From positions 1 to 38,424 of the IMG/VR virus record IMGVR_UViG_3300017971_000502: a stretch of DNA of 38,424 bases, one strand, 5' to 3'. A program made the translations under genes and the position numbers. Below the pieces are notes generated by a model. The model saw only the letters and a program-made list of their open reading frames with translations. It made no database searches and was not told where the DNA came from. The number at the start of each line of letters is the position of its first letter. Position 1 is the first letter of the stretch. The stretch comes from a virus. Below are positions 552 to 33,840 of the stretch, piece after piece.

Positions 552-1052
552 ATGGCAAAGAAAATGACAATGACAATCAAAGAATTCGAAGATTATCGAT
601 CAAAAACGAATCCGATAATCATCGTATCGTACTCAACGATTAAAGGACGTGAGCGAGTTATCGACAGGGAAAAAATTAAGGAAAAAGGAAAGCAATTGAT
701 AAAAAAAGCAATTGAATCAAAAAAATGGCAAAGAAAATGCATAATTGGTGGAGTTGTTTGCAAAAGTTATAAACAAGCCGCAATGGCAGATTATGCATTC
801 TTATTAGCATTCCCGAGTGGGGTTTGTTACGTGTGGCATACTCGGGATTTTGCGTTTAAAACCCCATGGGGTGACACTTGTGTCTCTGACTATCGAATTA
901 TCAATAAGCTTTTTTTGGGCTGCGGTGGAAACTTTGCGGAACAGCGCACAGGAAAAGAAAAGCGCCCAAGAAGCCCATTCCATGCAATAAGAAAAACAAA
1001 AAGGAAAATTGTTGATCAGATTATTGGTAAAAAATCACAACAAAAATCTTGA
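552..1052 (+). CDS. Hypothetical basic protein, 166 aa
   Basis: I chose the ATG at 552 because AAGGAG at 539-544 sits seven bases upstream; an in-frame ATG at 525 exists but lies before this site. The protein has a lysine-rich N-terminal half, a central hydrophobic/aromatic part (around YAFLLAFPSGVCYVWHTRDF) and a basic C-terminal tail. I recognise no family. A CCCCATGGGG palindrome (862-871) falls inside the codons for Thr-Pro-Trp-Gly. The -35 box of the next promoter overlaps its stop codon region. It is probably cotranscribed with the downstream small genes and is likely a phage accessory protein. Confidence 0.7.
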   Translation: MAKKMTMTIKEFEDYRSKTNPIIIVSYSTIKGRERVIDREKIKEKGKQLIKKAIESKKWQRKCIIGGVVCKSYKQAAMADYAFLLAFPSGVCYVWHTRDFAFKTPWGDTCVSDYRIINKLFLGCGGNFAEQRTGKEKRPRSPFHAIRKTKRKIVDQIIGKKSQQKS

Positions 1053-1076
1053 CATCATCAAATGGTTTGATAAAGT
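1049..1076 (+). promoter_or_regulatory. Sigma70-like promoter before the AQP-repeat gene
   Basis: TTGACA (1049-1054), 16 nt, TAAAGT (1071-1076). The -35 is consensus; the -10 matches four of six bases. The predicted start is near 1083, giving a leader of about 35 nt with AAGGAG at 1104-1109 before the ATG at 1118. Confidence 0.5.
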
Positions 1077-1117
1077 AATCAAGTTATTTAATGATGTCAA
1101 TCAAAGGAGACCATAAA

Positions 1118-1537
1118 ATGGCCAAGAGATCAGTACAGCTAGCACAACTAGCACAACAAGCACAACCAGCACAACCAGCACAACCAGCACAACCAGCACA
1201 ACCAGCACAACCAGCACAACAAGTGCAAAAAAAGACAAGAAAGAAACCGACAGAAGAGGACAAGGCAAAGAGAAGAGAAGAACAAAAACAAGCCACGACA
1301 AAAACGATTGGATTAATGGTTGAAATATCAACATCGTTGAAGTCGCTTAATTTAAATGAACTTTCAACGATGCTTGACTTAAGATCGTTGCAATCTGATT
1401 TTTTGGTTTTGCAAAATGAAATCAAAAAAGTCCAACATGGATTAACGAAGGGGTGCTTTGAAGAAGTGGCCCTTTCATTAAATAAAGAAATAGACGAATC
1501 ATGGAAAAAACTCGAACAAGCTTTACGATCTAAATAA
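1118..1537 (+). CDS. Hypothetical protein with (AQP)n repeat and coiled-coil-like C-terminus
   Basis: The start at 1118 is set by AAGGAG at 1104-1109. The 139-residue protein opens with a short basic stretch, then Ala-Gln-Leu/Gln/Pro triplets (about residues 7-35) made by a 9-bp tandem DNA repeat. A highly charged Lys/Glu/Arg segment follows, and then an amphipathic helical C-terminal half rich in Leu, Ser and Glu. The AQP stretch is probably a flexible linker. The Lys/Gln-rich centre could bind nucleic acid, but nothing specific is recognised. It has its own candidate promoter overlapping the end of the upstream gene. Confidence 0.7.
   Translation: MAKRSVQLAQLAQQAQPAQPAQPAQPAQPAQPAQQVQKKTRKKPTEEDKAKRREEQKQATTKTIGLMVEISTSLKSLNLNELSTMLDLRSLQSDFLVLQNEIKKVQHGLTKGCFEEVALSLNKEIDESWKKLEQALRSK
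1141..1221 (+). repeat. 9-bp tandem repeat (AGCACAACN), nine copies
   Basis: Nine consecutive 9-mers. The six central ones are identical (AGCACAACC) and the outer ones differ in the last base. More decayed units flank it (1132-1140 and 1222-1230). It encodes Ala-Gln-Pro triplets in frame. The identical core suggests recent slippage expansion, so length may differ between related phages. Confidence 0.9.
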
Positions 1538-1545
1538 TCATCAGT

Positions 1546-1600
1546 CACAAATCACAAATCACGAATCACTTTTTTTAAACCAAAAACCAAAAACCAAAAC
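1546..1600 (+). repeat. Two short heptamer repeats in the leader of the next gene
   Basis: CACAAAT units (1546-1566, the third being CACGAAT) are followed by a T-run (1570-1576) and then three ACCAAAA-type units (to 1600) directly before the AAGGAG at 1601. Both repeats have a 7-base unit. No stem-loop is visible, so the T-run is not an intrinsic terminator. Function unknown; it may keep the ribosome entry region unstructured. Confidence 0.5.
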
Positions 1601-1615
1601 AAGGAGATTTGAGTA

Positions 1616-3427: not shown

Positions 3428-3451
3428 TTTTTATTTTTACCTTTTTTTGTT

Positions 3452-4957
3452 TTACGGAACATACCACCATTCACTACGTTGACCGAGAATTGTTTCAGTA
3501 CCTAACTCAGAAACACCCAATGACCACCGTACCGGATCATCCGGTGGAACAATTGGTTCAATAAATCCTCTAAAATGTGTATGAGCCGGTTTCATGTATT
3601 CAATAATATCAGTTATTTGTTCTTCTTCTTCATCAGTTAATACTTGTGATGTTACGACCCAAAATGAATACAAATCATATTGATTTCCTGGACCCAATAC
3701 TGTTTCTGTACCCAATTCAGAAACACCTAATATCCAATTATCAGACCACCAATAAATTATATCAGAAATAGCATCATATCCAAGAAAAAATCTAACAACA
3801 TTTTTAATTCCGATTTCCGTCCCAACTTGTTTATAAATAGATATAAGCAATGAACATAATTTACGTTTTTTGTTCAAACTCAAACCAACGGTTAACTTAT
3901 AAAACGGATTTCCGAAATCAAACAATGTAGCATCGGCAGCGGACTCTGATAGGTAATCAATAGAACATAATTCATTATAGAATGCATCAATATCTTCAAG
4001 AAGTCTATTAAATACTTCTTGAAATACTGTGCAGAATTTTAAAAAATCTTGTTCTTCTATTTCGGAATCAGCTAATCTATGAACACGTGAAAAAAGATCA
4101 TAATATAAATTTATAGAATTACGATTTACATTTGAAACAATAAAACCTTTAAAATCCCATTGTCCGTCTTCGGTTTGTATTGGAGAAATATCATAAACAA
4201 CATTAGAAACTTGCATTAAATATGATGCGTTTGCTGTATGTTGAAAATCAGTAGTTAATTTTATTCTTGTTGATCGTTTTTTACCTAATGAAATAGACGA
4301 ATATTCAGGAACTTCTTCCGCTTTTGTTACCGTTAATTCAACCGCTTCACCTGGTTCCGTTAATGAACCGGAACTTGGTCTGGTAATCACGTAATTAGCC
4401 GGATTTGCAGCGTCCGATGCACCCCCCCCATGGGATATCCAGTCAACCGGCGTCCATTGATCGGACGGATTTATTAGTCCAATAGATGTATTTCTTACAA
4501 CAATTGGTAAATCGAATTCTAATTCAATTGTTCGTCTTCCGGTTGTAATTAAATTAAGTAAAATAGGGGTTGTTGCTACCTCGAAATCCCATTGATCTTC
4601 TCTGTAATCTCCTATTGTATCTTCGACATAAACTGTTATTCTATATTCTGCATCTGCTAAATATGGATGTGTTGTAATTTCGACATCAAAACCACCGAAT
4701 ACATTCGGTACTATTGTGCCGTCATAATCCGGTGTTTGAAAGACCCCATTAATGATCATATTTTCTGTTATTGGTGTTCCATTTGGGTCTTGAATAATGT
4801 CAACATCTAACGAACTCTGTACGGCTTCACCTGTTGAATCCGAAACAACAAATGAAATTATTGCATCACCGATTTCTGAATCTGTATCTGGCTCTTTTTC
4901 GGTAATTACTGGCGGATTATTTGGCAATCCATAGTAATCGTATAGTAATTGCCCCAT
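3452..4957 (-). CDS. gpI-like tail/baseplate protein with Ig-like N-terminal region
   Basis: 501 residues. The C-terminal half matches the P2 gpI type: a helical region around FDFGNPFYKLTVGLSLNKKR, then KQVGTEIGIKNVVRFFLG, and a terminal EQITDIIEYMKPAHTHFRGF signature. The N-terminal ~270 residues are beta-rich with two Ig/cadherin-like segments, an addition to the usual ~200-residue gpI. The peptide LGVSELGTETxLG occurs twice, near residue 410 and again near the end. The start is firm: TAAGGAGG precedes an ATG embedded in a CCCCATGGGG palindrome (4952-4961). gpI proteins link the baseplate wedge to the fibres, which fits its place between the gpJ region and the fibre gene. Confidence 0.8.
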   Translation of the reverse strand: MGQLLYDYYGLPNNPPVITEKEPDTDSEIGDAIISFVVSDSTGEAVQSSLDVDIIQDPNGTPITENMIINGVFQTPDYDGTIVPNVFGGFDVEITTHPYLADAEYRITVYVEDTIGDYREDQWDFEVATTPILLNLITTGRRTIELEFDLPIVVRNTSIGLINPSDQWTPVDWISHGGGASDAANPANYVITRPSSGSLTEPGEAVELTVTKAEEVPEYSSISLGKKRSTRIKLTTDFQHTANASYLMQVSNVVYDISPIQTEDGQWDFKGFIVSNVNRNSINLYYDLFSRVHRLADSEIEEQDFLKFCTVFQEVFNRLLEDIDAFYNELCSIDYLSESAADATLFDFGNPFYKLTVGLSLNKKRKLCSLLISIYKQVGTEIGIKNVVRFFLGYDAISDIIYWWSDNWILGVSELGTETVLGPGNQYDLYSFWVVTSQVLTDEEEEQITDIIEYMKPAHTHFRGFIEPIVPPDDPVRWSLGVSELGTETILGQRSEWWYVP

Positions 4958-4969
4958 GGGGTTTCCTCC

Positions 4970-5791: not shown

Positions 5792-5792
5792 T

Positions 5793-6848: not shown

Positions 6849-7844
6849 TTATTTTTGCGACGAACTTCCATCCCACCCAAATGAACATCCATAATTTTCA
6901 TATGTGCTTATCCATCTGTTTAAATCAAACCTGTATCCGGGTCCGGGACCAAATGTTTTTCCTACAAGTCTAAGATCACCAAGATAACCATCCCACGCAG
7001 ATGTTGGTTTAATTTGAACTGGATAAATGTCAACTTTAGGAATTGCCCCATGGGTTGTTGGTTGTGTCAGCGGTGAGATTATTTTATCTCCGTTTTTAGT
7101 TGTATACGAACAATGTCGGTATGTATTTGATTCATCCAGAAATCCAATACCGTCAGTTTCGAATCCGCTTTCAGGAACGAAATTCCCTGCGGTAGTGCAT
7201 TGATATGCTGGTGACATATAAGCGCCACCATCTTTGCAAATAAAACAACGTGGGTTGGTTTGGGAATCTGATCGTCGCGTGTAATCCCCAAGATATGCGA
7301 GTACTGAATAAAATTCCCACGCTCTATCAGCATATCTTGATTGTAGAATTAATGTGTCTTCGTCACAATGTATATAAAATGTATTTGTGCGTGCTGATGG
7401 ATTTAAAGCGCCACCAGGATATCTATTTTGTGAAGCCCGTGAAGGTGTTGCAAAATCTTTTGAAGTTGTGTTCCAACCCCCCTCCGGTGCAAATCTAATT
7501 AAGTTTCTCCATGCCGTACCTTCGTTTCCATAGTCATTACCGGACGGATCATCAAATCCGTAATACCTATTTGCATGATGAAAAATTGCCTGCCATGTTG
7601 GTGAATATGTTGGGTTCGTTGGTTGAATAACAAAATAACCTTGATCTCCAATATCGGTATAAGCCGTCCATTCAGCATCGGCTATTGGATCACCAATATA
7701 TTGACCGTGATCAACACCCCAAGAATCAATTATTTCAACATTTGTTAATAATGACATCATTGATGCTAAATTAAACAAGTGGTGTTCTGGCCAAAAATTT
7801 CCAGTTATATTTGTGAATGTATTTCTGACAATTTCAATTGCCAT
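6849..7844 (-). CDS. Tail-tip protein, first of two paralogues
   Basis: 331 residues. The shared block is DPSGNDYGNEG followed by RFAPEGGWNT. It starts by TAATG overlap with the stop of gpJ, so it is coupled to the baseplate gene. The opening residues (FTNITGNFWPEHHLFNLASMM) are helical, and the rest is beta-rich with several Cys (around CFICKDGG and YQCTTAGN) that its paralogue lacks at the same places. Function is inferred only from position and the paralogue pair: a structural protein at the tail tip or baseplate periphery. Confidence 0.6.
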   Translation of the reverse strand: MAIEIVRNTFTNITGNFWPEHHLFNLASMMSLLTNVEIIDSWGVDHGQYIGDPIADAEWTAYTDIGDQGYFVIQPTNPTYSPTWQAIFHHANRYYGFDDPSGNDYGNEGTAWRNLIRFAPEGGWNTTSKDFATPSRASQNRYPGGALNPSARTNTFYIHCDEDTLILQSRYADRAWEFYSVLAYLGDYTRRSDSQTNPRCFICKDGGAYMSPAYQCTTAGNFVPESGFETDGIGFLDESNTYRHCSYTTKNGDKIISPLTQPTTHGAIPKVDIYPVQIKPTSAWDGYLGDLRLVGKTFGPGPGYRFDLNRWISTYENYGCSFGWDGSSSQK

Positions 7845-9837: not shown

Positions 9838-10572
9838 TTAATCCGTAAAAACTTTTTGCGACAAATATGATGATGCTGTTATTAATTGTGATCCAGAAAT
9901 AGATGTTGATGCATTCATTAATTGTGTTCCGGCACTAACAATTGCAGACGCTGCCGCCGGTGCAAGTCCAGAAAATACCGGATCTGTTCCAGCGGTATTT
10001 AATGAAACAGAAGCATTGAATAATGCACTGGCAATATCTGATAAAACAGAAGCTTCTTCCGCTCTGTATTCTGTTCCCCTAATAAGTGCTTGATCGGCAT
10101 CATCTGCGGCAAAATAAATTTTATTATCAATTCCGTCAATACGGATAATCAATCCAGAAGATTTGTGTTTTATTTGGTAAAATTTATCCGTTGTTCTTCC
10201 GTCTCTAATAATCTCAAACTCTTCGCACTCTTCTACAACAGATTGTCTGTTTTCATCTTCTATTATCGCAGAATTGGGTACATCCGTTACACCGTTGGGA
10301 CAACCCCATGGGCCCGGTAAATAACACGGACGTTGAACATTGCCTTGTTCAAATAATATCGCTACGTTAGCACCTACCGGAGGCACTTCAACACGGCCCT
10401 TTTGTGTTCCGTTTCTTGTTCCGCCGGATCCCGGTTGACCAATTGGTTGACACCATGGGGATTCCGGTTCAAATTTTCCAACAACACGAGCTTTGATACG
10501 AATCAAATTTTCCGGATCTTTATTATTTACAACTTCACCTATGTATAGATTATTATCTTTTTCTCCGGGCAT
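9838..10572 (-). CDS. Baseplate spike protein, gp5/VgrG OB-fold type
   Basis: 244 residues. The N-terminal ~95 residues are an OB-fold: YIGEVVNNKDPENLIRIKARV, then PPVGANVAILFEQGNVQRPCYLPG, as in gp5/VgrG/gpV. A short beta region (IIRIDGIDNKIYFA) probably starts the needle. The C-terminal ~75 residues are Ala/Ser-rich helical repeats rather than a long beta-helix. No lysozyme domain is present. It lies directly after the hub gene as in related phages, so it is the membrane-piercing tip partner of the gpD-like protein. Confidence 0.82.
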   Translation of the reverse strand: MPGEKDNNLYIGEVVNNKDPENLIRIKARVVGKFEPESPWCQPIGQPGSGGTRNGTQKGRVEVPPVGANVAILFEQGNVQRPCYLPGPWGCPNGVTDVPNSAIIEDENRQSVVEECEEFEIIRDGRTTDKFYQIKHKSSGLIIRIDGIDNKIYFAADDADQALIRGTEYRAEEASVLSDIASALFNASVSLNTAGTDPVFSGLAPAAASAIVSAGTQLMNASTSISGSQLITASSYLSQKVFTD

Positions 10573-12862: not shown

Positions 12863-13426
12863 TTATCTCGCTGACTGTTGTGGTGTTGGCATATGACTAA
12901 ATTCATAACTCATAACATCACGCATTATTTTTCTCACTTCACTTTCTTCTTCAATTGCTAAATCAGCAACAAGCCTACGTGTTTCCCCTGTGCGTGATGA
13001 AAAACTTTGATGTCTGAAATTTGCCGTTATAACCTTTCCTTTAATCTGAATAGTACGTGGCCAAATAAATAAAATATCTGGCGGATCAGGACGATCTGTT
13101 TCGCCATCCCCCATGGGGTATGTGAGCGATTCAAGCCATTGCTTTTCTTGCAATACCGTTGGAGAAATTGCATCCAACCCGTATGTACCAAACTCTTCTT
13201 CACGAATAAATTGTGATAAATAAATTTGAACTGGAACTTTTTTATTTTGAACACCTTTGAATTGTAATATTTGTCTTGTTGACCCGGGTCCTGAGATTCT
13301 TTCATATTCAACTGATAGTTGTTCGAGTAATTCGGTTGGATTGAATTGAAAATCAAATCTATCTTGTGTTGCTAAATTAATAATTGCACATTTGGGTGGG
13401 TTTGTATTTGTTTCGTTGTTAGGCAT
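12863..13426 (-). CDS. CIS tube-type baseplate protein (Afp7 N-terminal-like)
   Basis: 187 residues. The segment AIINLATQDRFDFQFNPTEL, followed by YERISGPGSTRQILQFKGV, is the pattern of contractile injection system tube/baseplate proteins with an FNPTE motif. It initiates tube assembly at the hub. It starts by TAATG overlap with the tape measure stop. In extracellular contractile injection systems this domain is fused to LysM; here LysM is a separate gene directly downstream. A CCCCATGGGG palindrome (13109-13118) lies in codons for Pro-Met-Gly. Confidence 0.75.
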   Translation of the reverse strand: MPNNETNTNPPKCAIINLATQDRFDFQFNPTELLEQLSVEYERISGPGSTRQILQFKGVQNKKVPVQIYLSQFIREEEFGTYGLDAISPTVLQEKQWLESLTYPMGDGETDRPDPPDILFIWPRTIQIKGKVITANFRHQSFSSRTGETRRLVADLAIEEESEVRKIMRDVMSYEFSHMPTPQQSAR

Positions 13427-15879
13427 TATGTTTGCCTCGTTACTTGTCCGGCAAGGCCACCATTGCGTTCTTGAACACGTGTTACGGACTCAGCTATTTG
13501 TTCTCCGTCAAGTTCGTTTCTAATTGTTATTTCCAATGGCCTTTGTTGACCTCGTTGTTGCTGTTGAGCCAATTGTTGTATTGATGCTTGTAATTCTCGT
13601 TGACTCGCAACCGTGCTTTCAGCGCTTGCTGCTGCTGGTGTTCTTCCAGATTCCGTTCGTTCTGCGGATTCGGCACGACGTTGAGTTGACAACCTAACAC
13701 CGCGTTCTTCCGGTCGTGATGAATCATCTTCACCGGTGCGGAAAATTTCTCCAATAACACCACCGGCTGTTGCAAAAACGGTTCTATTGATTGCTTGTGT
13801 CGCTTCTAACAACGGCATCAATGGTTCAATTAGTTTGTACAAAAACTCAACCGCTTTTTGAATTTTTGGAATCAAATAATCCATGTATTCGCCGGCAACA
13901 CCGATCATTTCAACAAGTAAACCAAAAGCATGTTTTGAAACCCAAACAATTGGTTGCATGAACATTGCTAAGACTTTGAATGTTCTAATTAGCATTGTTG
14001 TCGCAAATATTGCTCCGTGAATTGCACCGATTATTACGCGAGCTATTGTAACACCGATTGCAGCATATTCACTTAACGGTACTTCGTTTGCTCCGGTTAC
14101 TAATTTTCCGGTTGGTCCAAAAAGTTTTGCGACTTCTACAAACAATCCTTTTAATGCTGTCCCTAATTCACTAAATGCTGGTCCAAGTGTTTTGAACGCT
14201 GGACCAATCGATGCAACCATTCCGTCCCAAATTGATTTTAGTCTAGACCCGAAACGAAAAATTTTAATTACGAATTGCATTATCCCTTCGTTTTCTGCTT
14301 TCTCCATTTCTTCTAATACTGCACCGGAAAAACCACCTTGAGTGAATAATTGTACCAATCCATCCCATGTTAGTCTTACTTTGGCAATCATGTTATCGAT
14401 AAAATCTGCAATCCCCCCTAGATTTTTTTGATACGCTTTATAAATCATTATTGATATAGCAACTGCACCGGCACCAAGTACTATAAACGGAGCCAATGCG
14501 AGCGCTATTGCACCGGCGATTTTTAAAATCAAAACACCAACGGTTGATAATATCGGAGCAAGTAATCCAATTATACCGGCCGTGATTAAGATTGCACCGG
14601 CTAAAACCATAAATGCAGATGTACCAAGGAAAGCAATTCCAATAAATGTTTGAAGACCTTTTGGAATAGCAGTCCAAACTTGAATAAATTTATTAATTGC
14701 TGTTGTTACACCAAGAACAAGTGGTTTAAAAATTCTACCAAATACCTCACCAAGAGTAATTTTAAGAGTTTGTAATGTTCCTGTGAGTAACGTCATTTGT
14801 CCGGCAAATGTATCCGCTAAAGTCTCACGGAATGTTTGAGCTGTTCCATCGGCGTTTTCCATCTCGGTGCGCATATGTCTAATCGCTTCAATTCCGGTTA
14901 GTGTAACCCTACGTCCTTCCCTTGTAACTTCAACCTGGGCACGACCAATTGCATTCATTGCAGCCATACCGCGTTGACCAAATGTTTGAACGACGAATCT
15001 ATTTCGTTCCTCATCAGTCATACTTCTTGTTGCTGCATATGCATCTGTAATAATCGACAAATAATCTCTTGCCGCTCCGGTTTGTTGGTTATAAACATCA
15101 ATTCCTGCTTCCCTTAAATTTTTTAATGATTGTTCTTCTGTATAAATTCTTCGTTGTGCTTCCCTCAATGATGTTGATCCAACAGATGCTTCAATGTTTG
15201 CGTTTCTAAGTAAACCCATACCAATTAATTGATCGTCTAATGTTTGATTATACAAAGATCCGGCCGATGACAATCTTCCAAGTGCAACAGCAAAATCACT
15301 TGCTTGAAAATTCGTCATTTGAGTTACTCTCAACAAACGATCTGTAACACCTGTTGCTTCGCTTGCCGACATTTGATATGAATTTAAAACACCAACAACA
15401 CTAGATGCTGCTTCCGCAACACCTAATTGACCCAATGATCCGGCTGCTAAATCTAAGACGGGAATCAATGTTTGGGTTGATGCTTGAGCATTTTGTCCAG
15501 CCGTAGCCAATGATTGCAAACCTTCGGCGGCTTCTTGTGGTGAAAATTGTGTAGCGATACCAGCTTGAACGGCAGATTGATGCAATAATTCCATTTCTCC
15601 GCGGGTTGCTCTGGAAACAATTCCAACGGATGTTAATGTCCGTGTAAATTCACCTGCTTCTGTTGCTAATTGCCATGATCCCCGTAAACCAGCAAGTCCG
15701 GTTCCAAGCAATGCCGCTCCCGCAGCAATAGCAGCAAATGATTTCATGATTCGTCCGGCACCGGATGTTATTGCCGATTGTAAGCCAAGAAAATTACCGC
15801 GAATCAACCCCATGGGTCCAGACATCATATCTCGCGCAGAAAGCATGATTCCAATACCCATTTGTTCAAAATTACCCAT
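13426..15879 (-). CDS. Tail tape measure protein
   Basis: 817 residues, TP901-type. Conserved N-terminal core (about 60-400) with GEFTRTLTSVGIVSRA, FSPQEAAEGLQSLATAGQNA, and RFVVQTFGQRGMAAMNAIGRA. A hydrophobic region of about 70 residues (around 410-480) holds likely membrane-inserting helices. The rest is helical with a Gln/Arg-rich end (QQLAQQQQRGQQRP). It measures tail length and is ejected first. The position after the chaperone frameshift gene and before the baseplate genes is classical. The AAGAG before the ATG is weak. At 817 residues, a tail of roughly 120 nm would be expected from the usual 0.15 nm per residue rule. Confidence 0.92.
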   Translation of the reverse strand: MGNFEQMGIGIMLSARDMMSGPMGLIRGNFLGLQSAITSGAGRIMKSFAAIAAGAALLGTGLAGLRGSWQLATEAGEFTRTLTSVGIVSRATRGEMELLHQSAVQAGIATQFSPQEAAEGLQSLATAGQNAQASTQTLIPVLDLAAGSLGQLGVAEAASSVVGVLNSYQMSASEATGVTDRLLRVTQMTNFQASDFAVALGRLSSAGSLYNQTLDDQLIGMGLLRNANIEASVGSTSLREAQRRIYTEEQSLKNLREAGIDVYNQQTGAARDYLSIITDAYAATRSMTDEERNRFVVQTFGQRGMAAMNAIGRAQVEVTREGRRVTLTGIEAIRHMRTEMENADGTAQTFRETLADTFAGQMTLLTGTLQTLKITLGEVFGRIFKPLVLGVTTAINKFIQVWTAIPKGLQTFIGIAFLGTSAFMVLAGAILITAGIIGLLAPILSTVGVLILKIAGAIALALAPFIVLGAGAVAISIMIYKAYQKNLGGIADFIDNMIAKVRLTWDGLVQLFTQGGFSGAVLEEMEKAENEGIMQFVIKIFRFGSRLKSIWDGMVASIGPAFKTLGPAFSELGTALKGLFVEVAKLFGPTGKLVTGANEVPLSEYAAIGVTIARVIIGAIHGAIFATTMLIRTFKVLAMFMQPIVWVSKHAFGLLVEMIGVAGEYMDYLIPKIQKAVEFLYKLIEPLMPLLEATQAINRTVFATAGGVIGEIFRTGEDDSSRPEERGVRLSTQRRAESAERTESGRTPAAASAESTVASQRELQASIQQLAQQQQRGQQRPLEITIRNELDGEQIAESVTRVQERNGGLAGQVTRQT

Positions 15880-20022: not shown

Positions 20023-20991
20023 TTAGAATGATTCCTTATATGTATCAATTGTTATGTCTGGAGGATCATCAGTCATTGTTCCCCAATTAGAAACAACAAT
20101 TTCATCATCCCCAATAGGAACAGATGCAATACTGAATTGAAACTCAGCCATCATTATATCATCTGTATTTTCATTTCTTCTTCTATTTGGTGGTGAATTT
20201 AAAATAAGATCGTACCGAACAAGATCCCCCATGGGATTTTCTGTATCTTCTGGAATAACTATATACTTGTTATTCTTAAAAAAGATCACAATTTCTTGCA
20301 TTAAATTTAGTATTGAAAATTGATCACCATATCCAACGGTTATTTCGCCAGAAAAAATTACATTATAAACCTTTGGTGCGATATGTTTTGTGAATTCCAA
20401 AATATCAGTATCGCTTTCACTTTTCTTAGAAACTGTTCTTGATTTGTATTTTGTATCTTCAATTAGTTGAGGGCCAAAAATTGCTATTCCTGGTAACTCT
20501 GCTAATTCGACAACACCCAAGCCTGTTACTACATCACTGTCATAATCTAGTCCAGTATTTGACGCGATATTATTAATGACTTGTCGGCGCATTGTCATCA
20601 ATAATTCTCTAATTAAATTTGCTAATGTTCCGTTTGTACGCGCCATTGAATTGCGTTGATACTGAAAACCATCTGTTATCGTTATTTCTTCTTCGGGTGG
20701 TCCTAAATTTCTTAAAACAATATCAACATTTATTCCAGATTCTATTGTTGACGGATCTCCTCTAAATTCTGGTACTGTACATGTTAGTTCTGTTGTTGAC
20801 CACACCATTATATCAGCGACTTGCCGTCCATTTATTTCAATTTCCATGGACGGTTCCCATGTTCCGCCAACATATCCAGTTGCCGGTGGATCTTCTGGTA
20901 ATTGGAAATCATTTCCAATAATTTTGACTAGATACCTACCGGATGTATGTCCGGATGATGGTGTTATAGATGTAAAACTCGGTGCTGTCAC
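20023..20991 (-). CDS. Tail terminator candidate with TIG/IPT domain
   Basis: 322 residues. Residues 1-110 form an IPT/TIG Ig-like domain (SFTSITPSSGHTSGRYLVKIIGNDF ... TELTCTVPEF). The rest is an alpha/beta domain with ANLIRELLMTMRRQV and FFKNNKYIVIPED, whose position between the tail completion gene and the sheath suggests the terminator that caps the tail. The start is GTG at 20991: AGGA lies seven bases upstream, while the ATG two bases before it reads directly into a stop. TIG domains in phage proteins usually aid surface contact. Terminator function is inferred from gene order. Confidence 0.6.
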   Translation of the reverse strand: MTAPSFTSITPSSGHTSGRYLVKIIGNDFQLPEDPPATGYVGGTWEPSMEIEINGRQVADIMVWSTTELTCTVPEFRGDPSTIESGINVDIVLRNLGPPEEEITITDGFQYQRNSMARTNGTLANLIRELLMTMRRQVINNIASNTGLDYDSDVVTGLGVVELAELPGIAIFGPQLIEDTKYKSRTVSKKSESDTDILEFTKHIAPKVYNVIFSGEITVGYGDQFSILNLMQEIVIFFKNNKYIVIPEDTENPMGDLVRYDLILNSPPNRRRNENTDDIMMAEFQFSIASVPIGDDEIVVSNWGTMTDDPPDITIDTYKESF

Positions 20992-22873: not shown

Positions 22874-23800
22874 TTATATTCCTGGTTTCCATCCAGGTGC
22901 CAGAAAACAATCAAAAGCACCAACGCTATATAATTGTTGTATTATTTTATTTGGTTTTGTTGATGCAAGTTTTCTATAAAGAACTTCTGTTCTTTTTTTG
23001 TTTTTCGCAACTTGATTATTGCGAATACTAATACGTGAATTTTTTGAAAATTTTTCCCATGTTTCTGGTATACTACATCTATGATTTTTATAATGAGATA
23101 ATAAAAAAGATCCTTGTATATTATCTAAAGTATTAATTAATTCTTGAAACTGTTCTATTGTATATCCAGAATAATGACCTTGATCAGTATCGATATAAGG
23201 AGGATCACAATAAAAAAAAGTTTGAGGCGAATCCCATCTGTTTATTACATCAATTGCATCATTGCAATCAATATAAACCCCATTTAGTCTATCAATAATT
23301 TTTGGTAAATTTTTTATTTTATTATGAAATACTCTAGCATTATTTGATCCATATTTACCAAATGACCAGCCACCATGTTGTTCATGACCAAATGATTGAT
23401 TGATATTAATATAAAACCAAACAGCAATGTCTAAATCAGAACAATTTGGATATCCAGATTTATTCAATTCTTTTGATTTATCATGAATTTTTTGTGAAAA
23501 AGGAATATAATCAAGTCTATTAATAAATTCATTTTGAAGCATTGGATCAGAAGCAACTCTGTATAATGTAATCAACACTTCATTTGTATCATTTAATACT
23601 TCGCGATAATAATCAGTATTATTAATTTTTGGATATTGTTTTTTAAAAAATACGGCAGCACTTCCAGCAAATGGCTCAACATAAACTGTATGTTTTGGAA
23701 TATACTCACAAATCCAAGAAGCTATTCTTTGTTTTCCACCATAATAAGTAATCAATGGTGGCGTATTTTGATATCTTATGTATTTTGGTAAATCATTCAT
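22874..23800 (-). CDS. D12-class DNA N6-adenine methyltransferase
   Basis: 308 residues, full length. Motifs: ITYYGGKQRIA (17-27), VYVEPFAGSAAVFF (39-52, SAM-binding), DPPY at 199-202 (catalytic), and KRTEVLY near 269-275, all in the order of Dam/MethyltransfD12 enzymes. It transfers a methyl group from SAM to adenine in a short DNA target. The target cannot be read from the sequence. No restriction gene is next to it, so it is probably an orphan used for self-protection or gene timing. It sits between a likely head-closure gene and the neck gene, in an AT-rich cargo block with no CCGG. Confidence 0.9.
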   Translation of the reverse strand: MNDLPKYIRYQNTPPLITYYGGKQRIASWICEYIPKHTVYVEPFAGSAAVFFKKQYPKINNTDYYREVLNDTNEVLITLYRVASDPMLQNEFINRLDYIPFSQKIHDKSKELNKSGYPNCSDLDIAVWFYININQSFGHEQHGGWSFGKYGSNNARVFHNKIKNLPKIIDRLNGVYIDCNDAIDVINRWDSPQTFFYCDPPYIDTDQGHYSGYTIEQFQELINTLDNIQGSFLLSHYKNHRCSIPETWEKFSKNSRISIRNNQVAKNKKRTEVLYRKLASTKPNKIIQQLYSVGAFDCFLAPGWKPGI

Positions 23801-24306: not shown

Positions 24307-25371
24307 TTATACCGCCGATGCCCACTCGACAGAAATGTATCGAGCTAAAATAGAATCAATTTCAGGATTCCCAGTCCAAGCTCCTTGTGTTCCAGAGCTT
24401 GCTAATGAATCCAATGTGTAAGATTGTGTTTTTGTTTTTTCACTTTTGATTCTATTTATATTTTGCCGTGAATTCCTAGCGGCCAACCCAGACCACATTG
24501 GTTCTATTTCATTCATTACCAAAAGCTTACAAAGTTTTTGTATTTCCAATGGCGTTGTTCCAAATGAAACTGGGATTTGCGAACCTTGTTCTGTTTCACC
24601 GACTGTATCATTTGTACCAATTTCTGTCCACCCAAATACGCCATCAACACGAATATTTTGACGACCAACCGGGAACATATATGCGTCACCTGAAAGATTT
24701 GCCCAAGTTGCCGCTGAAAGCAAATGTAATTCATCTATATCACTCTGATATTCTATTGCTGGTGTATCTCTATCATCCGGAGATAATATACCAGAAACAA
24801 GGTGTCTATTTCTAATAACTAATTCACTAATAGGAATTGTCGTTTCTGTATATGGTGATCGCTTTATTATAATTCCCATTGATGTTATTTTTATAATTGG
24901 ATGATTTAAACGAAGAATACTTGTTCCATCGCCATCAAGATTGATGGATAAAGTTCTCGGATCAAAAAATTGTCTTGTAATTTTTTCAATAACCCGTGAA
25001 GCAAGAGATATTTTATCTATTAAATCATCATCCGTGATCTTTGATACCGGAACACCTTCATCACGGATTGATTGAATTGTACAATAAAGCCCTTGAATCC
25101 CTTCACCAGCTATTGGATCACTTTGAGCACTTTCTGTAAGATTTGTACTATGAAAGTATGAAAACCTATAATAATAAGTAGTTTCTCCAGCAGTGTCAGT
25201 ATAATCATAAATTATTTGATCAGCAACTAAATCAATTCGTGTTAACGCATCTGTTATCTCTGAATAGGTTCCGTCAATGCCAGTTGTTGATCTATAAACT
25301 TTTATTTGGTCAAAAGTCTCCATTACTTCATTAATATTTTCAGCGGCTATTTCTAATCTAATTGTAGCCAT
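24307..25371 (-). CDS. Head-tail adaptor, gp6-like, with FnIII N-terminus
   Basis: 354 residues. Residues 1-90 resemble a fibronectin type III domain (ending in YYYRFSYFHSTNLTESAQS). From about 95 the gp6/YqbG-type connector fold follows: SKITDDDLIDKISLASRVIEKITRQFF, then RLNHPIIKITSMGI, and a helical end with EIQKLCKLLVMNEIEP. Connectors dock under the portal. The extra FnIII domain is unusual and probably projects outward. The start overlaps the upstream stop (TAATG) behind GGAGG. Confidence 0.78.
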   Translation of the reverse strand: MATIRLEIAAENINEVMETFDQIKVYRSTTGIDGTYSEITDALTRIDLVADQIIYDYTDTAGETTYYYRFSYFHSTNLTESAQSDPIAGEGIQGLYCTIQSIRDEGVPVSKITDDDLIDKISLASRVIEKITRQFFDPRTLSINLDGDGTSILRLNHPIIKITSMGIIIKRSPYTETTIPISELVIRNRHLVSGILSPDDRDTPAIEYQSDIDELHLLSAATWANLSGDAYMFPVGRQNIRVDGVFGWTEIGTNDTVGETEQGSQIPVSFGTTPLEIQKLCKLLVMNEIEPMWSGLAARNSRQNINRIKSEKTKTQSYTLDSLASSGTQGAWTGNPEIDSILARYISVEWASAV

Positions 25372-25832
25372 TATATTTCCTCCGCATTGATTGGTTTCGG
25401 AACCAAATTTAGTACCTTATTAGATTGTGGTGTATCATTGATTGCTCGCATACCCCATGGGGTTTGTGTTGTCGGATCACTATCAGTGCGTTCAGCATTA
25501 TATCCATCCGGTGTGATGTTTTCTACCGATAATCCGTCCGGTGCAATATTGATAGAAGATAATAATCTCGGTGGTTTTCCAAGCCCCGGAAAAACAACAA
25601 CAGTAGTATTGAACCAAAACATCAAACTAGAATTTTCACGCGGAGCGGTACGCATTTCTATTGTTAATCGATCAGAATTTTCAATCAATCCATCAACCGA
25701 ATCATCTCGATCAACAATGACACCATCAAGATATGCCCAAACAGTACCTGGGATATACTGAATTGGAGTTTGAAATATTTTATTTACACCATTAATTGTT
25801 CCGATTGCCGGCGTTATTTTTGGGTCTCCCAT
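25371..25832 (-). CDS. Structural protein with phage INGxN-F beta domain
   Basis: 153 residues. GTINGVNKIFQTPIQYIPGTVWAYLDGVIVD, with a closing APRENSSLMFWF strand, is a common small beta domain of phage structural proteins. Its upstream neighbour carries the same domain at its C-terminus. The ATG forms part of CCCATGGG (25828-25835), four bases after the upstream stop and without its own clear Shine-Dalgarno site, so translation is coupled. It is probably a virion surface or neck part. Confidence 0.65.
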   Translation of the reverse strand: MGDPKITPAIGTINGVNKIFQTPIQYIPGTVWAYLDGVIVDRDDSVDGLIENSDRLTIEMRTAPRENSSLMFWFNTTVVVFPGLGKPPRLLSSINIAPDGLSVENITPDGYNAERTDSDPTTQTPWGMRAINDTPQSNKVLNLVPKPINAEEI

Positions 25833-25836
25833 GGGA

Positions 25837-27154: not shown

Positions 27155-28201
27155 TTAATCTTCTTTATCAGAAATCTGTTTTAATGTTATGTAATCAACA
27201 AATGCAACCGGTTCAACAGATCCACCGGCTGAATCAGCTTTTACACCTATACCAAGGCCCGTTGTTGGAATATTCGTCGTGATTGGTGATCCTTCATTTG
27301 AACCATTGATCTTCAATTGAATACTTGGTGTTCCACTTGGATCACTGATTACAAATCCAACGCGATACCAATTGTTCAAACCAAATGATGTTGTTCCTTG
27401 TTGGGTTGTTCTTGTTCCGTTATTTGCGGATTCGATTGCAAATGTACCAGTATTTGCATCAAATAGAACATAAATTCCATCATCCGGTTTTCCATCTGTT
27501 GTGAAATTATCTGATAACCCAGCAAGAACCATTTCTAGGTCTGAAGATTGTATGCTACCGGTGACTTTAATCAATGCTTCAAATTCAATTTGATTTGTTC
27601 CACCTATTTTGATCCATGGATGCGTTGTGTCTCCGATATAAATTGCTGATACGGTTGCTGAGCCTGTCCCTGCTTGTAATTCGATAACACCTGGATGACC
27701 TGCTTCTGATGTCAAAAATGCTGCTGTTCCTGTCCCACTCGTAAACGTACGCCATCCATACTTTCCTATTTCGTCAAGATCCATATTTCCGGACGCAAAA
27801 TGTTCACAAATAATATATTCCAATAAATCAGCAGATCCACCACCCCCAGTTGATGCAATCGTTATTGTATCGGTTCCGTTCGTTATTGTAACATTTGAAC
27901 CCTGAACAAGTTTTTTGAAATTTAATGTAACCCCGGTTTTATCACGAAAAATTTCACCTTGTCCGGTTCCAACATTTGCAGCGAGATTTGTCTCACCACT
28001 TCCGGTTCCAAGTGCTCCACTCCATGTTGTCGGTGAATGATTAAGCAAAACATAAATATCATTGTTTGGAGATGTTTGTTGATACGCACGTCCCACGTCA
28101 GTAGCAACCGGAGAAAAAGCAAGACGTGCTGTTTCGTCGGCAAAAGTTCCACTAATCACTATGTGGTTGTCTGATTCCGTGATATTTTTATGTAATCCCA
28201 T
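27155..28201 (-). CDS. Fibre- or decoration-like protein with LamG-like C-terminus
   Basis: 348 residues. The N-terminal ~125 residues look like a phage fibre attachment module (FADETARLAFSPVATDVGRA, then VTITNGTDTITIAST and a Gly linker). The C-terminal ~220 residues form a jelly-roll with FEALIKVTGS, DGIYVLFDANTGTFAIES and NNWYRVGFVIS. The ATG is part of CCCATGGGG (28197-28204), four bases after the stop of the winged-helix gene. Placed on the head side of the operon, it may be a head fibre rather than a tail fibre. Confidence 0.65.
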   Translation of the reverse strand: MGLHKNITESDNHIVISGTFADETARLAFSPVATDVGRAYQQTSPNNDIYVLLNHSPTTWSGALGTGSGETNLAANVGTGQGEIFRDKTGVTLNFKKLVQGSNVTITNGTDTITIASTGGGGSADLLEYIICEHFASGNMDLDEIGKYGWRTFTSGTGTAAFLTSEAGHPGVIELQAGTGSATVSAIYIGDTTHPWIKIGGTNQIEFEALIKVTGSIQSSDLEMVLAGLSDNFTTDGKPDDGIYVLFDANTGTFAIESANNGTRTTQQGTTSFGLNNWYRVGFVISDPSGTPSIQLKINGSNEGSPITTNIPTTGLGIGVKADSAGGSVEPVAFVDYITLKQISDKED

Positions 28202-28205
28202 GGGG

Positions 28206-28424
28206 TTATTCTTCTTTTTTTGTTTTATACAAATAATAGCCAGGTTTTTTTATTCTTTTAATTTTGTTTTCTTTGAGTAACTTTTTTAAATTTTTTTGTA
28301 TGGTTGTATCACTATAACCACTTCTTATTTTTATTTGCGAAAAATTTAATGAATCACCATATTTTAACATACTCATGATTTTTTCTTGACATGATTTTCT
28401 ATAAATATTTATCATTGGTCCCAT
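28206..28424 (-). CDS. Small winged-helix DNA-binding protein
   Basis: 72 residues, basic. MLKYGDSLNFSQIKIRSGYSD..IQKNLKKLLKENKIKRI..PGYYLY matches a winged helix: helix, recognition helix, then wing. It starts by TAATG overlap with the upstream stop; a second Met at residue 4 is an alternative start. A DNA-binding protein inside the late operon could act as a feedback regulator. Target unknown. Confidence 0.6.
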   Translation of the reverse strand: MGPMINIYRKSCQEKIMSMLKYGDSLNFSQIKIRSGYSDTTIQKNLKKLLKENKIKRIKKPGYYLYKTKKEE

Positions 28425-30114: not shown

Positions 30115-30157
30115 GTATTACATAAACAATATAGCAACAAATAATCAAATAGGCAAG

Positions 30158-31267
30158 TTATTCTTCTGATTTTGGTTTGATTTCACCTGTATCAGAGTCA
30201 TAAATATATTCATATTTAATATCATATCTATCTGCGATATCATGTGTTATTTTTGCGCTTTTTTCTTTATCACTTTGAATGTTTTTTAGTATTTTATCAG
30301 ATTCAAGAAACTTTTTAGATTGATTTTTTTCATTATTTGTTTGGTTTATAGATGCATTCAATAATAAAATTTGAGATTTTGATGATTCAAGCTGTGCAGT
30401 TAATCTAATTATTTTTGCTTTATTCCTGATGTCATTAAGTTTGAGTCTATAACTTTCTAATAATAATAAATCATATTTAGAAAGATAAATTCTTCCATCG
30501 TGATCAATCCATGCTTGCATTGGATTATCAGATGGTTTTAGTAATGATATTGGTAATTCATTAATTGTTAATTTATTTTTTAATGTATCAATAAATTCTT
30601 TTGGTGACGTAATTTTTTTGTTTGATTTTACTGATTCAATGGCATCAACTGAATATAATCTGTAAAAATATTCTAATTTATTCCTTAATTCTCTTTCTTC
30701 TTTACATATTATTCCAGGTTTATCACTTTTAAAACATATTCCAGATTCTTCTATATCTTCATTAACACATTTATGAATTTTATCAACTTCACTCATATAT
30801 TCACTATGTGTTATTATGTTATCTATGTAACTTTGTTCAAAAGTTGCGATAGTTTGATTTTTATCTAATATCAACCCGCCGCATCTTTTATCGTTGATAA
30901 AATACTCAATTCTATTTTTTTGTTCTTGCTCTTGCTGCTCTTGTTCTTGTTCTTTTTGTTCTTGTTCTTTTTGTTCTTGTTCTTGTTCTTTTTGTTCTTG
31001 TTCTTGTTTTTTTATCTTATTTATTTTATTTTTAATTTTTTCTCTGGCTGAATAAATAAAATCAAGATCAAATGCTTTATCATATTCATCTTTAGCTGGA
31101 ATAAACAAACTACAAGGATTTGATGAACTTAATTCAAATCCTTTGATGTCATTATCATCTTCTATGCATTTATTATAACAATTACAATACATACAATTAT
31201 GATTTATAAATCTTTTAATTTTATCCATTTTTTGTCGTTTTTGTTCTTGTTCTTTTTTGTTACTCAT
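30158..31267 (-). CDS. Hypothetical protein with Cys cluster and Glu-Gln repeats
   Basis: 369 residues. Cys at 25, 28, 30, 34 and 52 (NCMYCNCYNKC ... NPCSLF) suggest a zinc site. A region around residues 87-118 consists of EQEQKEQ-type repeats, likely a long charged helix. Further Cys lie at about 167-190. The C-terminal third is a coiled coil ending with an acidic tail (YDSDTGEIKPKSEE). A strong AAAGGAG precedes the ATG. No CCGG occurs in this gene, unlike the structural genes. Function unknown. Confidence 0.65.
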   Translation of the reverse strand: MSNKKEQEQKRQKMDKIKRFINHNCMYCNCYNKCIEDDNDIKGFELSSSNPCSLFIPAKDEYDKAFDLDFIYSAREKIKNKINKIKKQEQEQKEQEQEQKEQEQKEQEQEQQEQEQKNRIEYFINDKRCGGLILDKNQTIATFEQSYIDNIITHSEYMSEVDKIHKCVNEDIEESGICFKSDKPGIICKEERELRNKLEYFYRLYSVDAIESVKSNKKITSPKEFIDTLKNKLTINELPISLLKPSDNPMQAWIDHDGRIYLSKYDLLLLESYRLKLNDIRNKAKIIRLTAQLESSKSQILLLNASINQTNNEKNQSKKFLESDKILKNIQSDKEKSAKITHDIADRYDIKYEYIYDSDTGEIKPKSEE

Positions 31268-31286
31268 TTTTCACTCCTTTATTTAT

Positions 31287-31568
31287 TTATCTTTGTATTC
31301 TTTTTATGTAATCATTGATTGTTCTTTTTGTAAGCGATTGTGCTATTAACGAAATTTCTTCTTTATTATTTTGCATTTTTTCAATAATATTATCTGGTAT
31401 TTCAAGTTTTGTAATTATTTTTTTACCTTCAAAATTATAAAATGGAGTTTCTATGCTTATATTCCAAGTATTATTCTTTTCACCATTTTTTCTTTTTTTA
31501 ATTATTTTACTTAGTCTTATCTTAAATAACCTATATATATGTTTTTTGTACGATTTATTAGTATCCAT
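31287..31568 (-). CDS. Small basic hypothetical protein
   Basis: 93 residues, Lys/Ile-rich, not recognised. The last ~25 residues (KEEISLIAQSLTKRTINDY) could be a helix-turn-helix, but the match is loose. AAAGGATAAAAAA before the ATG repeats the context seen at 16868 and 22850. It is grouped with the Cys-cluster protein by spacing and composition. Confidence 0.6.
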   Translation of the reverse strand: MDTNKSYKKHIYRLFKIRLSKIIKKRKNGEKNNTWNISIETPFYNFEGKKIITKLEIPDNIIEKMQNNKEEISLIAQSLTKRTINDYIKRIQR

Positions 31569-31587
31569 TTTTTTATCCTTTTTTGTT

Positions 31588-33840
31588 TTAAGAAGCTATT
31601 CTTTTTGTGCCGACAAAGAACATTGGTGAGAAAAATAAAACATCATCAGACAATGCCATCCCAATAGGTTGAGTAACTATTGGATCTGGAGATGGAATAG
31701 GTCTTGGAGTTTCTGGCCTACCATTTAATCCAACCCAATATAATTGTCCATAAGATAAACCAGTATATATGCCAGTTATTAATCCAAATAATTGTATTTC
31801 ACAATCTATTCCTGATTTTGAAACAATAACTGCAAATCCTGGTATTTTTGATAAATCAGAAATATCACTTTTTTCTACTTGGTACTTACCGGAAACAATA
31901 TCACCACGAACACAAACAATATCACCAATAGAATCCCCTGCTAAACAATTAGCTTCAACAATGAATGAAAAAGAAGCTAATTTATCAAGAAGAACTTTAT
32001 CAGTTGCAATCATAAATCCATTTTGCAATGTCGTAACAACAGCATGATTTAATGGATCAGAATGTTCTCCGTGTTTGTGCCGATGATCGGCTCTTGAAAG
32101 CGCCGCGGACTCCCCCTCTTGATTTGATGTATGTACTGACAATACATTTGTTGTTAATATATCATGCTTATGGTCGGCCCTAGCTGCCTTTGTATCGCCA
32201 CCAACTTGCGCCGCTAGTTTTGTAACATTGACCGGAGGATCATCTGTTAGAGCCCTGGCATTCGCATCTATTCCATCCAATTTCGATTTATCAGCAAACG
32301 ACATAAACCCATTGATTGATGGCGTAACTACAGCATGCAAAGATCCACCGGGTCTATCCCCATGAGTGTGAATATGATCGGACCGAGTCAATGAATCTGC
32401 CGATCCTTGGGCTATACTATCTCCTAACGGCACCGGATCAGCGACGGACACACTATGCTTATGGTCTTGTCTTGATGCTTCTAGAGACGTACCAGCGCTA
32501 GCAACACCAGCATCAACATCGACTGGATCAAGATCCGATAATTGATTACCGGAACCCGGTGCAATTCCATCTAGTTTCGATTTATCAGCAAACGACATAA
32601 ACCCATGGGATATTGCTGTAGCTATCGCATGCTGTGTGTCGTCCGTTTGAGCTCCATGGTTATGTTGATGATCTGATCTAGAAAATGAATTTGCTGTTCC
32701 TGTTTGATTCGTTGTTCCAATGTTTGTTGGTGTATCCGTTATAGCCAAATGTTGATGATCAGATCTAGATGATTCCGTTGATACTCCGGAAATTGAAGAA
32801 TTTACTGAAATATTTGTGGGTGTATTATTGGATAATTGTCCGCTATTATCTAATTTTGTTTTATCAATAGCAGCCATAAATCCAGATTCGGTTTGTGTTG
32901 CTATTTGATGTAAATTTCCTCTGCCCAAACTTCCATGTTGTGCATCATTTGCTAATTGACCAACTTGTATATCATCTTCATTGATTGTTATTGAACCATC
33001 TGCATTTTCACCAATGTCAAATCTAGACCCTGTTTTTGTTAATCCAGCACCGGGTTCTAAATTGTTTATTTGTGAAAAAACGTAATCTCTATTTACCGCA
33101 TCTGTTCCGGAATCCGGTAATGCTAAATTAGTGATTTTTTTATTGTTTAAATCAAAATCATCAGATGCTTTCCTTGATCCATCTGCAAGGAATGCAATTT
33201 TCCGGTTCCATCTATTTGCTCCGTCGGCTTCTAAGAATTCTCCTTCAGAAAGTGGTGAAGAAGTCATAGAATTAACTGTTATTTGATCAGATTGGTTATA
33301 TGTATGTGAAACCCCATGGGTTGTTGGCGGTCGTTGATCAGTATTGGAATCTATTGTTGCATCAATTATTGCAGAGTTTAAATCTGCAAGCGTTCCTGAA
33401 TTAATATTTGATAAACTTGTATCGTGCGGATTTGTTAGATCATGAATGTGTGAGTCTAAATTTGCACCATCATCTGAAATATTTCTACTGTTTATCGTTC
33501 CGGATGTTGTTATATTTCCATCATCATCAATTATAACATTTGAATCTTGTAATTGTTTTCCTGTTGTTCCGTGAAATCTTGAAATGGCATTATCTGTTGA
33601 GGTATTTGGTCCAATTGTTCGTTGTTCTATTGATGACTTAAGTAATAAAATATTTGTTCCAAGACTAGAATTCCAATGTGGTCCACCACCAATTTGTTTG
33701 AACATTGCGGCAAAATATGATAATTGCTTTCCTACAGAACTTGAATCTATATCTTCTGAATCTGAATCCAGTGGATCAAGGTCTTCATCCAATGGAATCT
33801 GTGGTTTTACTCGATCCGGATATGGTCTATTTATTGTCAT
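31588..33840 (-). CDS. Large fibre protein with repeated DHxH and GFM..DKxKLD modules
   Basis: 750 residues. The middle and C-terminal parts contain about four to five modules of roughly 80-100 residues. Each has a HA(V/I)xT....GFMxxxDKxKLD segment followed by an (S/A)RxDHxH segment (DHQH, DHQH, DHKH, DHIH, DHKH, DHRH). HxH pairs bind metal in trimeric fibres such as T4 gp12 and gp37. The last ~110 residues form a beta domain (GDIVCVRGDIVSGKYQVEK ... GLSYGQLYWVGLNGRPE) common at the end of phage fibres. It is coupled to the gene before it. Its head-side position suggests a head fibre or whisker. Confidence 0.75.
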   Translation of the reverse strand: MTINRPYPDRVKPQIPLDEDLDPLDSDSEDIDSSSVGKQLSYFAAMFKQIGGGPHWNSSLGTNILLLKSSIEQRTIGPNTSTDNAISRFHGTTGKQLQDSNVIIDDDGNITTSGTINSRNISDDGANLDSHIHDLTNPHDTSLSNINSGTLADLNSAIIDATIDSNTDQRPPTTHGVSHTYNQSDQITVNSMTSSPLSEGEFLEADGANRWNRKIAFLADGSRKASDDFDLNNKKITNLALPDSGTDAVNRDYVFSQINNLEPGAGLTKTGSRFDIGENADGSITINEDDIQVGQLANDAQHGSLGRGNLHQIATQTESGFMAAIDKTKLDNSGQLSNNTPTNISVNSSISGVSTESSRSDHQHLAITDTPTNIGTTNQTGTANSFSRSDHQHNHGAQTDDTQHAIATAISHGFMSFADKSKLDGIAPGSGNQLSDLDPVDVDAGVASAGTSLEASRQDHKHSVSVADPVPLGDSIAQGSADSLTRSDHIHTHGDRPGGSLHAVVTPSINGFMSFADKSKLDGIDANARALTDDPPVNVTKLAAQVGGDTKAARADHKHDILTTNVLSVHTSNQEGESAALSRADHRHKHGEHSDPLNHAVVTTLQNGFMIATDKVLLDKLASFSFIVEANCLAGDSIGDIVCVRGDIVSGKYQVEKSDISDLSKIPGFAVIVSKSGIDCEIQLFGLITGIYTGLSYGQLYWVGLNGRPETPRPIPSPDPIVTQPIGMALSDDVLFFSPMFFVGTKRIAS
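32281..32606. repeat. Two identical 32-bp segments, 294 bp apart
   Basis: Bases 32281-32312 and 32575-32606 are identical over 32 bases and encode the same GFMSFADKSKLD peptide in two modules of the fibre gene. The spacing equals 98 codons. The identity at silent positions points to recent duplication or gene conversion between modules. Confidence 0.8.

Follow-up and report, generated by a model that had tools for sequence, protein, structure and literature searches.

HIP1 (GCGATCGC) is the highly iterated palindrome (HIP) of cyanobacteria. To our knowledge, its function has been an open question since 1995. In host genomes, the quoted density of HIPs is 500-2,500/Mb, and extensions of HIP1 that preserve the palindrome have been described (PMC4390886). 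Single cyanobacterial lineages have alternate HIPs (GGGATCCC, TCGATCGA, GGCGCC, rCCGGy, and GCsGC; Elhai 2015, PMC4390886), and the genomes that have them contain a putative methyltransferase that could act on the HIP.

As a positive control, we counted GCGATCGC in cyanophages. Five of them are rich in HIP1, with only about 0.1-0.3 copies expected in each: Nostoc phage A1 and Planktothrix phage PaV-LD (27 copies per 50 kb), Nostoc phage N1 (26 per 38.4 kb), and Nodularia phages kac65v151 and 2AV2 (17 per 38.4 kb). Cyanophages A-4L, LMM01, and Pf-WMP3 had 0-1 copies.

The window analysed here is a full record of 38,424 nt, which is a fragment of the genome of an uncultured phage, and our counts cover this one record. 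It has 0 copies of GCGATCGC, so it does not carry HIP1 proper. Instead it contains 14 exact copies of another 8-nt palindrome, CCCATGGG. This is 364/Mb, or slightly under the range for host HIPs; the HIP1-rich phages have about 440-680/Mb. The copies are:

863-870, within the + strand ORF 525-1052; part of a whole 12-mer ACCCCATGGGGT
4427-4434, within gene 3452-4957 (- strand), phase 1
4953-4960, at the start codon of gene 3452-4957 (- strand)
7047-7054, within gene 6849-7844 (- strand), phase 1
10305-10312, within gene 9838-10572 (- strand, Phage_base_V), phase 2
13110-13117, within gene 12863-13426 (- strand, CIS_tube), phase 0
15809-15816, close to the 5' end of the tape-measure gene 13426-15879 (- strand), phase 0
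16027-16034, intergenic, between 13426-15879 and 16056-16868
20228-20235, within gene 20023-20991 (- strand), phase 0
25454-25461, within gene 25371-25832 (- strand), phase 2; part of a whole 12-mer ACCCCATGGGGT
25828-25835, at the start codon of gene 25371-25832 (- strand)
28197-28204, at the start codon of gene 27155-28201 (- strand)
32602-32609, within gene 31588-33840 (- strand), phase 1
33313-33320, within gene 31588-33840 (- strand), phase 1

This recount agrees with the sequence-only reading, which had reported 14 exact palindromes and had named a Markov background that yields about 14 copies as grounds for abandoning the idea. Composition and Markov models of orders 0-4 predict just 0.06-0.38 copies (mononucleotide, 0.11; order 1, 0.27; orders 2-3, 0.08-0.10; order 4, 0.38), so the excess over chance is about 40- to 250-fold. 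If the motif is masked from the background, then the expectation is 0.05-0.24, and dinucleotide shuffles gave a mean of 0.31 copies and a maximum of 2. In models of orders 5 and 6, the expectation rises to 4.5 and 11 copies, but these models include the hexamers and heptamers of the motif itself, which is the sole reason for the rise. The comparison of 8-mer counts to a Markov background that had been proposed, run on the phage record, places CCCATGGG first among all over-represented 8-mers with at least 6 occurrences, palindromic or not. Along the record, the copies are spread uniformly (Kolmogorov-Smirnov p = 0.84) with slight evenness only (p = 0.08). Their spacing is statistically random, and we rejected positional regularity.

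The enrichment is independent of protein sequence and codon usage. Ten of the 14 copies lie wholly inside coding sequence, three are on start codons (as CCC-ATG-GG), and one is intergenic. When we shuffled synonymous codons, which preserves every protein as well as codon usage, the coding sequence contained 0.32 +/- 0.54 copies, with a maximum of 3 in 1,000 shuffles, as compared to 10 observed. The codon phases of these 10 copies are nearly even (3, 4, and 3), and the copy at 863 is in a gene on the + strand, so the earlier statements that the motif uses all three phases and occurs in genes of both strands both hold. At the copy at 20228, the encoded residues are not conserved in two homologues.

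CCCATGGG is a nearly all-or-none octamer. Its one-mismatch neighbours are barely raised (6 in total versus 3.0-6.9 expected). Two of the six have their mismatch at an end position, and any bias towards the outer positions is weak at most. One-mismatch variants of HIP1 show no excess in PaV-LD and N1 and are enriched in three of the five HIP1-rich phages; in the Nodularia phages, 13 of 17-18 have the mismatch at an end position. The flanks of CCCATGGG prolong the palindrome to the 12-mer consensus ACCCCATGGGGT: the first flanking position is C in 16 of 28 half-sites (versus 21% before other CCC), and the second is A in 19 of 28 and T in none (T is 30% elsewhere). The gapped families CCC-N3-GGG and CCC-N4-GGG were discarded as separate signals, as they were mostly longer C/G runs that overlap CCCATGGG sites. 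The excess over the shuffles, the even phases, the scarcity of one-mismatch neighbours, and the extension into the flanks together indicate that the full word is kept as DNA.

We propose that CCCATGGG is a HIP-type palindrome and that the phage acquired the habit in a host whose own highly iterated palindrome is CCCATGGG (probability roughly 0.55). The phage genome would accumulate and keep CCCATGGG densely, in the way that HIP1 is kept in cyanobacteria and in some cyanophages, and it probably took on this habit during long evolution inside a CCCATGGG-rich host. The CATG or CCATGG core may be the target of a DNA methyltransferase of the host, the phage, or both, and either selection or a mismatch repair biased by methylation may explain why the whole word persists. 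Of the ideas in the sequence-only reading, the parallel to HIP1 with inheritance from the host is the best supported, as several phages of HIP1 hosts match this phage in the kind and density of enrichment.

The phage has a gene that could provide such a methylation mark:

22874-23800, - strand, D12-class N6-adenine DNA methyltransferase, 308 aa (Pfam MethyltransfD12, E = 1.3e-25)

The protein has PDB matches to Dam and to DpnII methyltransferase 1, and it is a candidate enzyme for the CATG core. We consider a role for CCCATGGG as a methyltransferase mark to be plausible. The earlier suggestion of such a mark thus gains circumstantial support from the presence of this gene, but the motif does not accompany relatives of the enzyme: 13 viral loci that encode 30-34% identical methyltransferases have no enrichment of CCCATGGG, and we rejected these relatives as carriers.

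The matches of this methyltransferase also raised Leptospira as a possible host, which we rejected because Leptospira phages do not share the CCGG excess. Among about 760 genomes from four phyla (200 Campylobacterota, 399 Pseudomonadota, 101 genomes from the phylum of a Dependentiae MAG, and 61 from the phylum of a Dehalococcoidia MAG; Cyanobacteria were outside the scan), we found no host with this habit; the density of CCCATGGG was at most about 64/Mb, as compared to 364/Mb in the phage. In a small, hand-picked set of sequences, the tetranucleotide profile of the phage was most similar to that of Nostoc phage A1 (r = 0.58), which is no more than a hint that the host is a cyanobacterium.

Among relatives of this myovirus, neither the 93 loci, whose major capsid proteins are 24-38% identical, nor the 18 whole records have an enrichment of CCCATGGG, which rules out a trait of the phage family. 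Single-protein scans with the sheath, the tail protein, and the capsid found no close kin. The sequence-only reading would have counted a lack of enrichment in relatives against the idea. This is half true: remote relatives do lack the excess, so it is not a family trait, and their lack of it is compatible with a habit derived from the host, which it fits but does not prove.

Alternatively, the copies could be sites for a phage DNA-binding protein (a stoperator repressor, or a protein for partition, condensation, or packaging) that recognizes the 12-bp consensus, which we view as a less probable but serious possibility. The graded, symmetric extension of CCCATGGG resembles the footprint of a dimer (although HIP1 has symmetric extensions as well; PMC4390886), and a 72-aa winged-helix-like gene (28206-28424) adjoins the site at 28197. 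Also, three unrelated viral records (G383, G384, and G009) have many copies of CCCATGGG per genome in paired arrays. They have the core octamer in common with this phage, but their sites are mostly close pairs (22-23 bp apart in G383 and G384) with AACCCATGGGTT-like flanks, their genomes are more G+C-rich, and the arrays are operator-like. A scan for pairs with T flanks gave only operator-like or isolated pairs and no virus that shares the habit, with a sensitivity of only about one in ten for a virus like this phage. Whereas the sites of an operator array should be mainly intergenic or promoter-proximal, 10 of the 14 copies here are in genes, in all phases, single, and unspaced. There are few sites that come close to the consensus but deviate at inner positions (two mismatches, 2 sites versus 0.15 expected; three mismatches, 6 sites versus 3.1), whereas a regulator's sites are usually graded. 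The stoperators of phage L5-type repressors are also many short sites across a phage genome, but these protein-bound sites are intergenic and in a fixed orientation, while the CCCATGGG palindromes are mostly within genes.

We think it improbable that CCCATGGG is a Chi-like or strand-exchange signal that shields phage DNA from a host exonuclease or recombinase or directs the action of such an enzyme. Its length and genome-wide spread are as in Chi. However, known Chi sites are strand-biased and not palindromic, we did not recognize a recombination gene within the record, and the spacing of the copies is random. HIP1 has been linked to recombination (PMC6604393, PMC9239245), which favors this idea.

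There is a similarly small chance that the phage retains CCCATGGG because the sites are always modified, by the host or the phage, and are a mark of self towards a BREX- or restriction-type defence. The methyltransferase gene would fit, as would the presence of CCATGG and CATG within the motif, but a few sites suffice for self-marking, and restriction normally favors avoidance. In 11 loci that carry relatives of the D12 methyltransferase, there is instead site loss, with GATC and CCGG absent.

A favored start context (CCC-ATG-GG), or codon and residue preferences, is a very poor explanation: the three copies on start codons do exceed the expectation from random placement, but 11 of 14 are elsewhere, and the even phases and the synonymous shuffle contradict it. 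Chance or a compositional artefact has a negligible probability, as nothing in this one record favors it, the models and shuffles reject it, and the Poisson tail for 14 copies at the most generous usable expectation (0.38) is about 1e-17, against 65,536 possible 8-mers.

If CCCATGGG is indeed a HIP-type palindrome, then this phage provides a second HIP-like sequence, one that is unrelated to HIP1. More tentatively, it might be the HIP of a bacterial lineage outside the known HIP lineages, with an adenine-methylated CATG core instead of GATC, that was first seen via its phage. If so, orphan methyltransferases and repair would lead to HIPs in general, and HIP formation would not be an oddity of cyanobacteria. 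Together with the abundance of HIP1 in phages of HIP1-rich cyanobacteria, and its lack in some other cyanophages, a second HIP-like sequence offers a way to separate mutation or repair bias in the host from selection, through comparisons of phages that differ in host, life style, or methyltransferase content. HIP-like words could also serve as sequence signatures that link orphan viruses to their hosts.

Among known systems, HIP1 in cyanobacteria and in the five phages is most like CCCATGGG: both are G+C-rich octameric palindromes with a dozens- to hundreds-fold excess, similar densities per phage genome, and palindrome-preserving extensions, and in PaV-LD and N1, as in this phage, one-mismatch variants are at background. 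The Markov excess, the independence from phase, codons, and protein, and the palindrome-keeping extension are all features of the HIP family. The cores differ (CATG versus GATC). We found no published HIP with the sequence CCCATGGG; it is outside the described alternate HIPs, and it is seen here in a virus rather than in a host chromosome. The alternate HIPs are a close parallel, since in particular lineages another palindrome fills the HIP role in association with a methyltransferase, and one of them, GGGATCCC, shares with CCCATGGG the layout of a tetramer core with GG/CC caps.

The 8-bp palindrome CCCATGGG (core CATG) occurs 14 times in the 38,424-base window, versus 0.11, 0.27, 0.08, 0.10, and 0.38 copies expected from Markov models of the window of orders 0, 1, 2, 3, and 4. 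(Orders above 4 are circular, because the motif's own hexamers and heptamers feed the model.) If the motif is masked, then orders 1-3 predict 0.05-0.24 copies. At 0.38 expected, the Poisson tail for 14 copies is about 1e-17, so chance is excluded as their source. Of all 8-mers that the window contains six or more times, CCCATGGG is the most extreme. All of these statistics for the phage come from one record.

The enrichment is nearly all-or-none, as the 24 octamers that differ from CCCATGGG at one base total 6 copies (3.0-6.9 expected). We compared coding sequence to 1,000 synonymous-codon shuffles, which hold all proteins and codon usage fixed. CATG falls short of the count that a simple Markov model predicts (115 versus 199 in the window), but it is not below the shuffles (106 versus 97 in coding sequence), so the tetramer itself is not favored. 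Placement of CCCATGGG is uniform over the window, and its flanks prolong the palindrome: across the 28 half-sites, the first base outward is C in 16, and the second is A in 19 and never T. Outside the motif, CCC is preceded by C in 21% of cases, and one position further out T accounts for 30%. The full 12-mer palindrome ACCCCATGGGGT is present at 2 of the copies.

The sequence-only reading held that CCCATGGG is not a protein motif, and our data agree: 10 copies lie inside coding sequence, versus 0.32 in the shuffles (maximum 3); these 10 are split 3, 4, and 3 among the codon phases; and of the others, one falls between genes and three lie at start codons (CCC-ATG-GG). The residues NPMGD encoded at site 20228 line up with NPDAG in one homologue and DPSAG in another, so what is conserved there is not the protein.

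The record is complete in IMG/VR at 38,424 bases. However, we recognized no terminase or portal gene in it, and genes run off its right end, so it is probably a piece of a larger phage genome. The gene content is that of a contractile-tail phage (prohead protease, sheath, tape measure, baseplate, and T4-type baseplate protein), and it also includes:

35331-36269, major capsid protein (matches annotated major capsid proteins)
22874-23800, D12-class N6-adenine methyltransferase

Small phage proteins at 1091-1537 (+) and 30158-31267 (-) have low-complexity repeats (QPAQPAQ and EQEQKEQEQ).

A search with half of the window found no close DNA relative in the phage collection. A capsid profile search gave 93 loci, 80 of them viral and 13 from genomes, at 24-38% identity. 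With 0-2 copies of CCCATGGG each, no locus shows the enrichment; 18 whole relatives, in records of 23-100 kb, have 0-5 copies each. By these loci and records, the enrichment is not a trait of the phage family. A metagenome-assembled genome (MAG) labelled Candidatus Dependentiae contains a provirus-like stretch (58% G+C) with homologues of the capsid and sheath, which may be misbinned.

We did not identify a host with an excess of CCCATGGG in genomes of four phyla. The window has 364 copies per Mb, and the maxima were about 18 among 200 Campylobacterota, 13 among 101 genomes from the phylum of a Dependentiae MAG, 27 among 61 from the phylum of a Dehalococcoidia MAG, and 64 among 399 Pseudomonadota. 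(Densities are listed counts over genome size, and phylum names are from the titles of the loci used as centres.) Among the sequences compared, the window's tetranucleotide profile is nearest to that of Nostoc phage A1 (r = 0.58), a weak hint as to the host.

The main rival explanation is a putative phage DNA-binding protein with a 12-bp palindromic site. Other viral contigs do have CCCATGGG as operator-looking pairs spaced 22-23 bp, but the sites in the window are single and mostly within genes. Readings of the motif as a Chi-like, anti-restriction, or translational signal are poorer fits. The paired sites are from G383 (L227, L239, L250, and L258) and G384 (L233 and L265), viral records with a G+C content of about 71% and 14 copies each; most copies are paired, with AACCCATGGGTT-like flanks, and resemble repressor operator arrays. 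A third record, G009, has 11 copies in tighter clusters. In the window, a 72-aa winged-helix-like protein (28206-28424, -) adjoins site 28197. Another word, AATTAATT, has 8, 5, and 4 copies in the proviruses L095, L092, and L072 (17-21 kb, 60-62% G+C, about 0.01 expected) and is possibly a promoter or operator element.

To our knowledge, HIP1 (GCGATCGC, the highly iterated octamer palindrome of cyanobacteria) is the only natural parallel with all features of this enrichment. We propose that the host holds CCCATGGG as its own highly iterated palindrome (HIP), and that the phage, if long resident in such a host, would have taken on the same habit. The HIP1 core is acted on by GATC and CGATCG enzymes (PMC6604393), and by analogy a methyltransferase at CATG or CCATGG, whether host-borne or the phage's D12 enzyme, is a likely partner. 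The sites could arise by Elhai's model of methylation-biased mismatch repair, or direct selection might have built them. Thirteen viral loci whose methyltransferases are 30-34% identical to the D12 enzyme show no enrichment of CCCATGGG, which speaks against a direct link, although at this identity specificity may well differ. Relatives of this enzyme are also encoded in 11 low-G+C viral loci (L280-L290) that have zero GATC and zero CCGG, which is strong site avoidance.

CCGG occurs 175 times in the window (81 ± 6.5 in synonymous shuffles), and its order-1 observed/expected ratio of 4.1 is the highest among the sequences compared; xCN codons ahead of GG end in C in 39% of cases versus 10% overall. 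Ratios of 2.3-3.0 are also seen in Nostoc phages A1 and N1 and in two viral records (L278 and L279) that have related methyltransferases. Across the window, AGG, GGAG, and GGAGG are strongly depleted within genes on the coding strand (CCTCC on the + strand, 6 versus 37), as expected if there is selection against Shine-Dalgarno-like words.

HIP1 and alternate HIPs have been linked to methyltransferases, and HIP extensions that preserve the palindrome have been described (PMC4390886). That paper does not mention phages, and we found no account of HIP1 in phage genomes in the literature that we searched, so we counted HIP1 in cyanophages as a positive control. (These phages were hand-picked and are not a random sample.) With 0.1-0.3 copies expected, there were 27 in 50 kb in both Nostoc phage A1 and Planktothrix phage PaV-LD, 26 in 38.4 kb in Nostoc phage N1, and 17 per 38.4 kb in each of two Nodularia phages. 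The three non-HIP1 cyanophages that served as negative controls (Anabaena A-4L, Microcystis LMM01, and Phormidium Pf-WMP3) had 0-1. In PaV-LD and N1, as in the window, one-mismatch neighbors of the HIP word are at background, whereas A1 and the Nodularia phages have an excess of them. Thus, phages can carry a host's HIP at roughly the density of CCCATGGG in the window, and by this comparison CCCATGGG behaves like a HIP.
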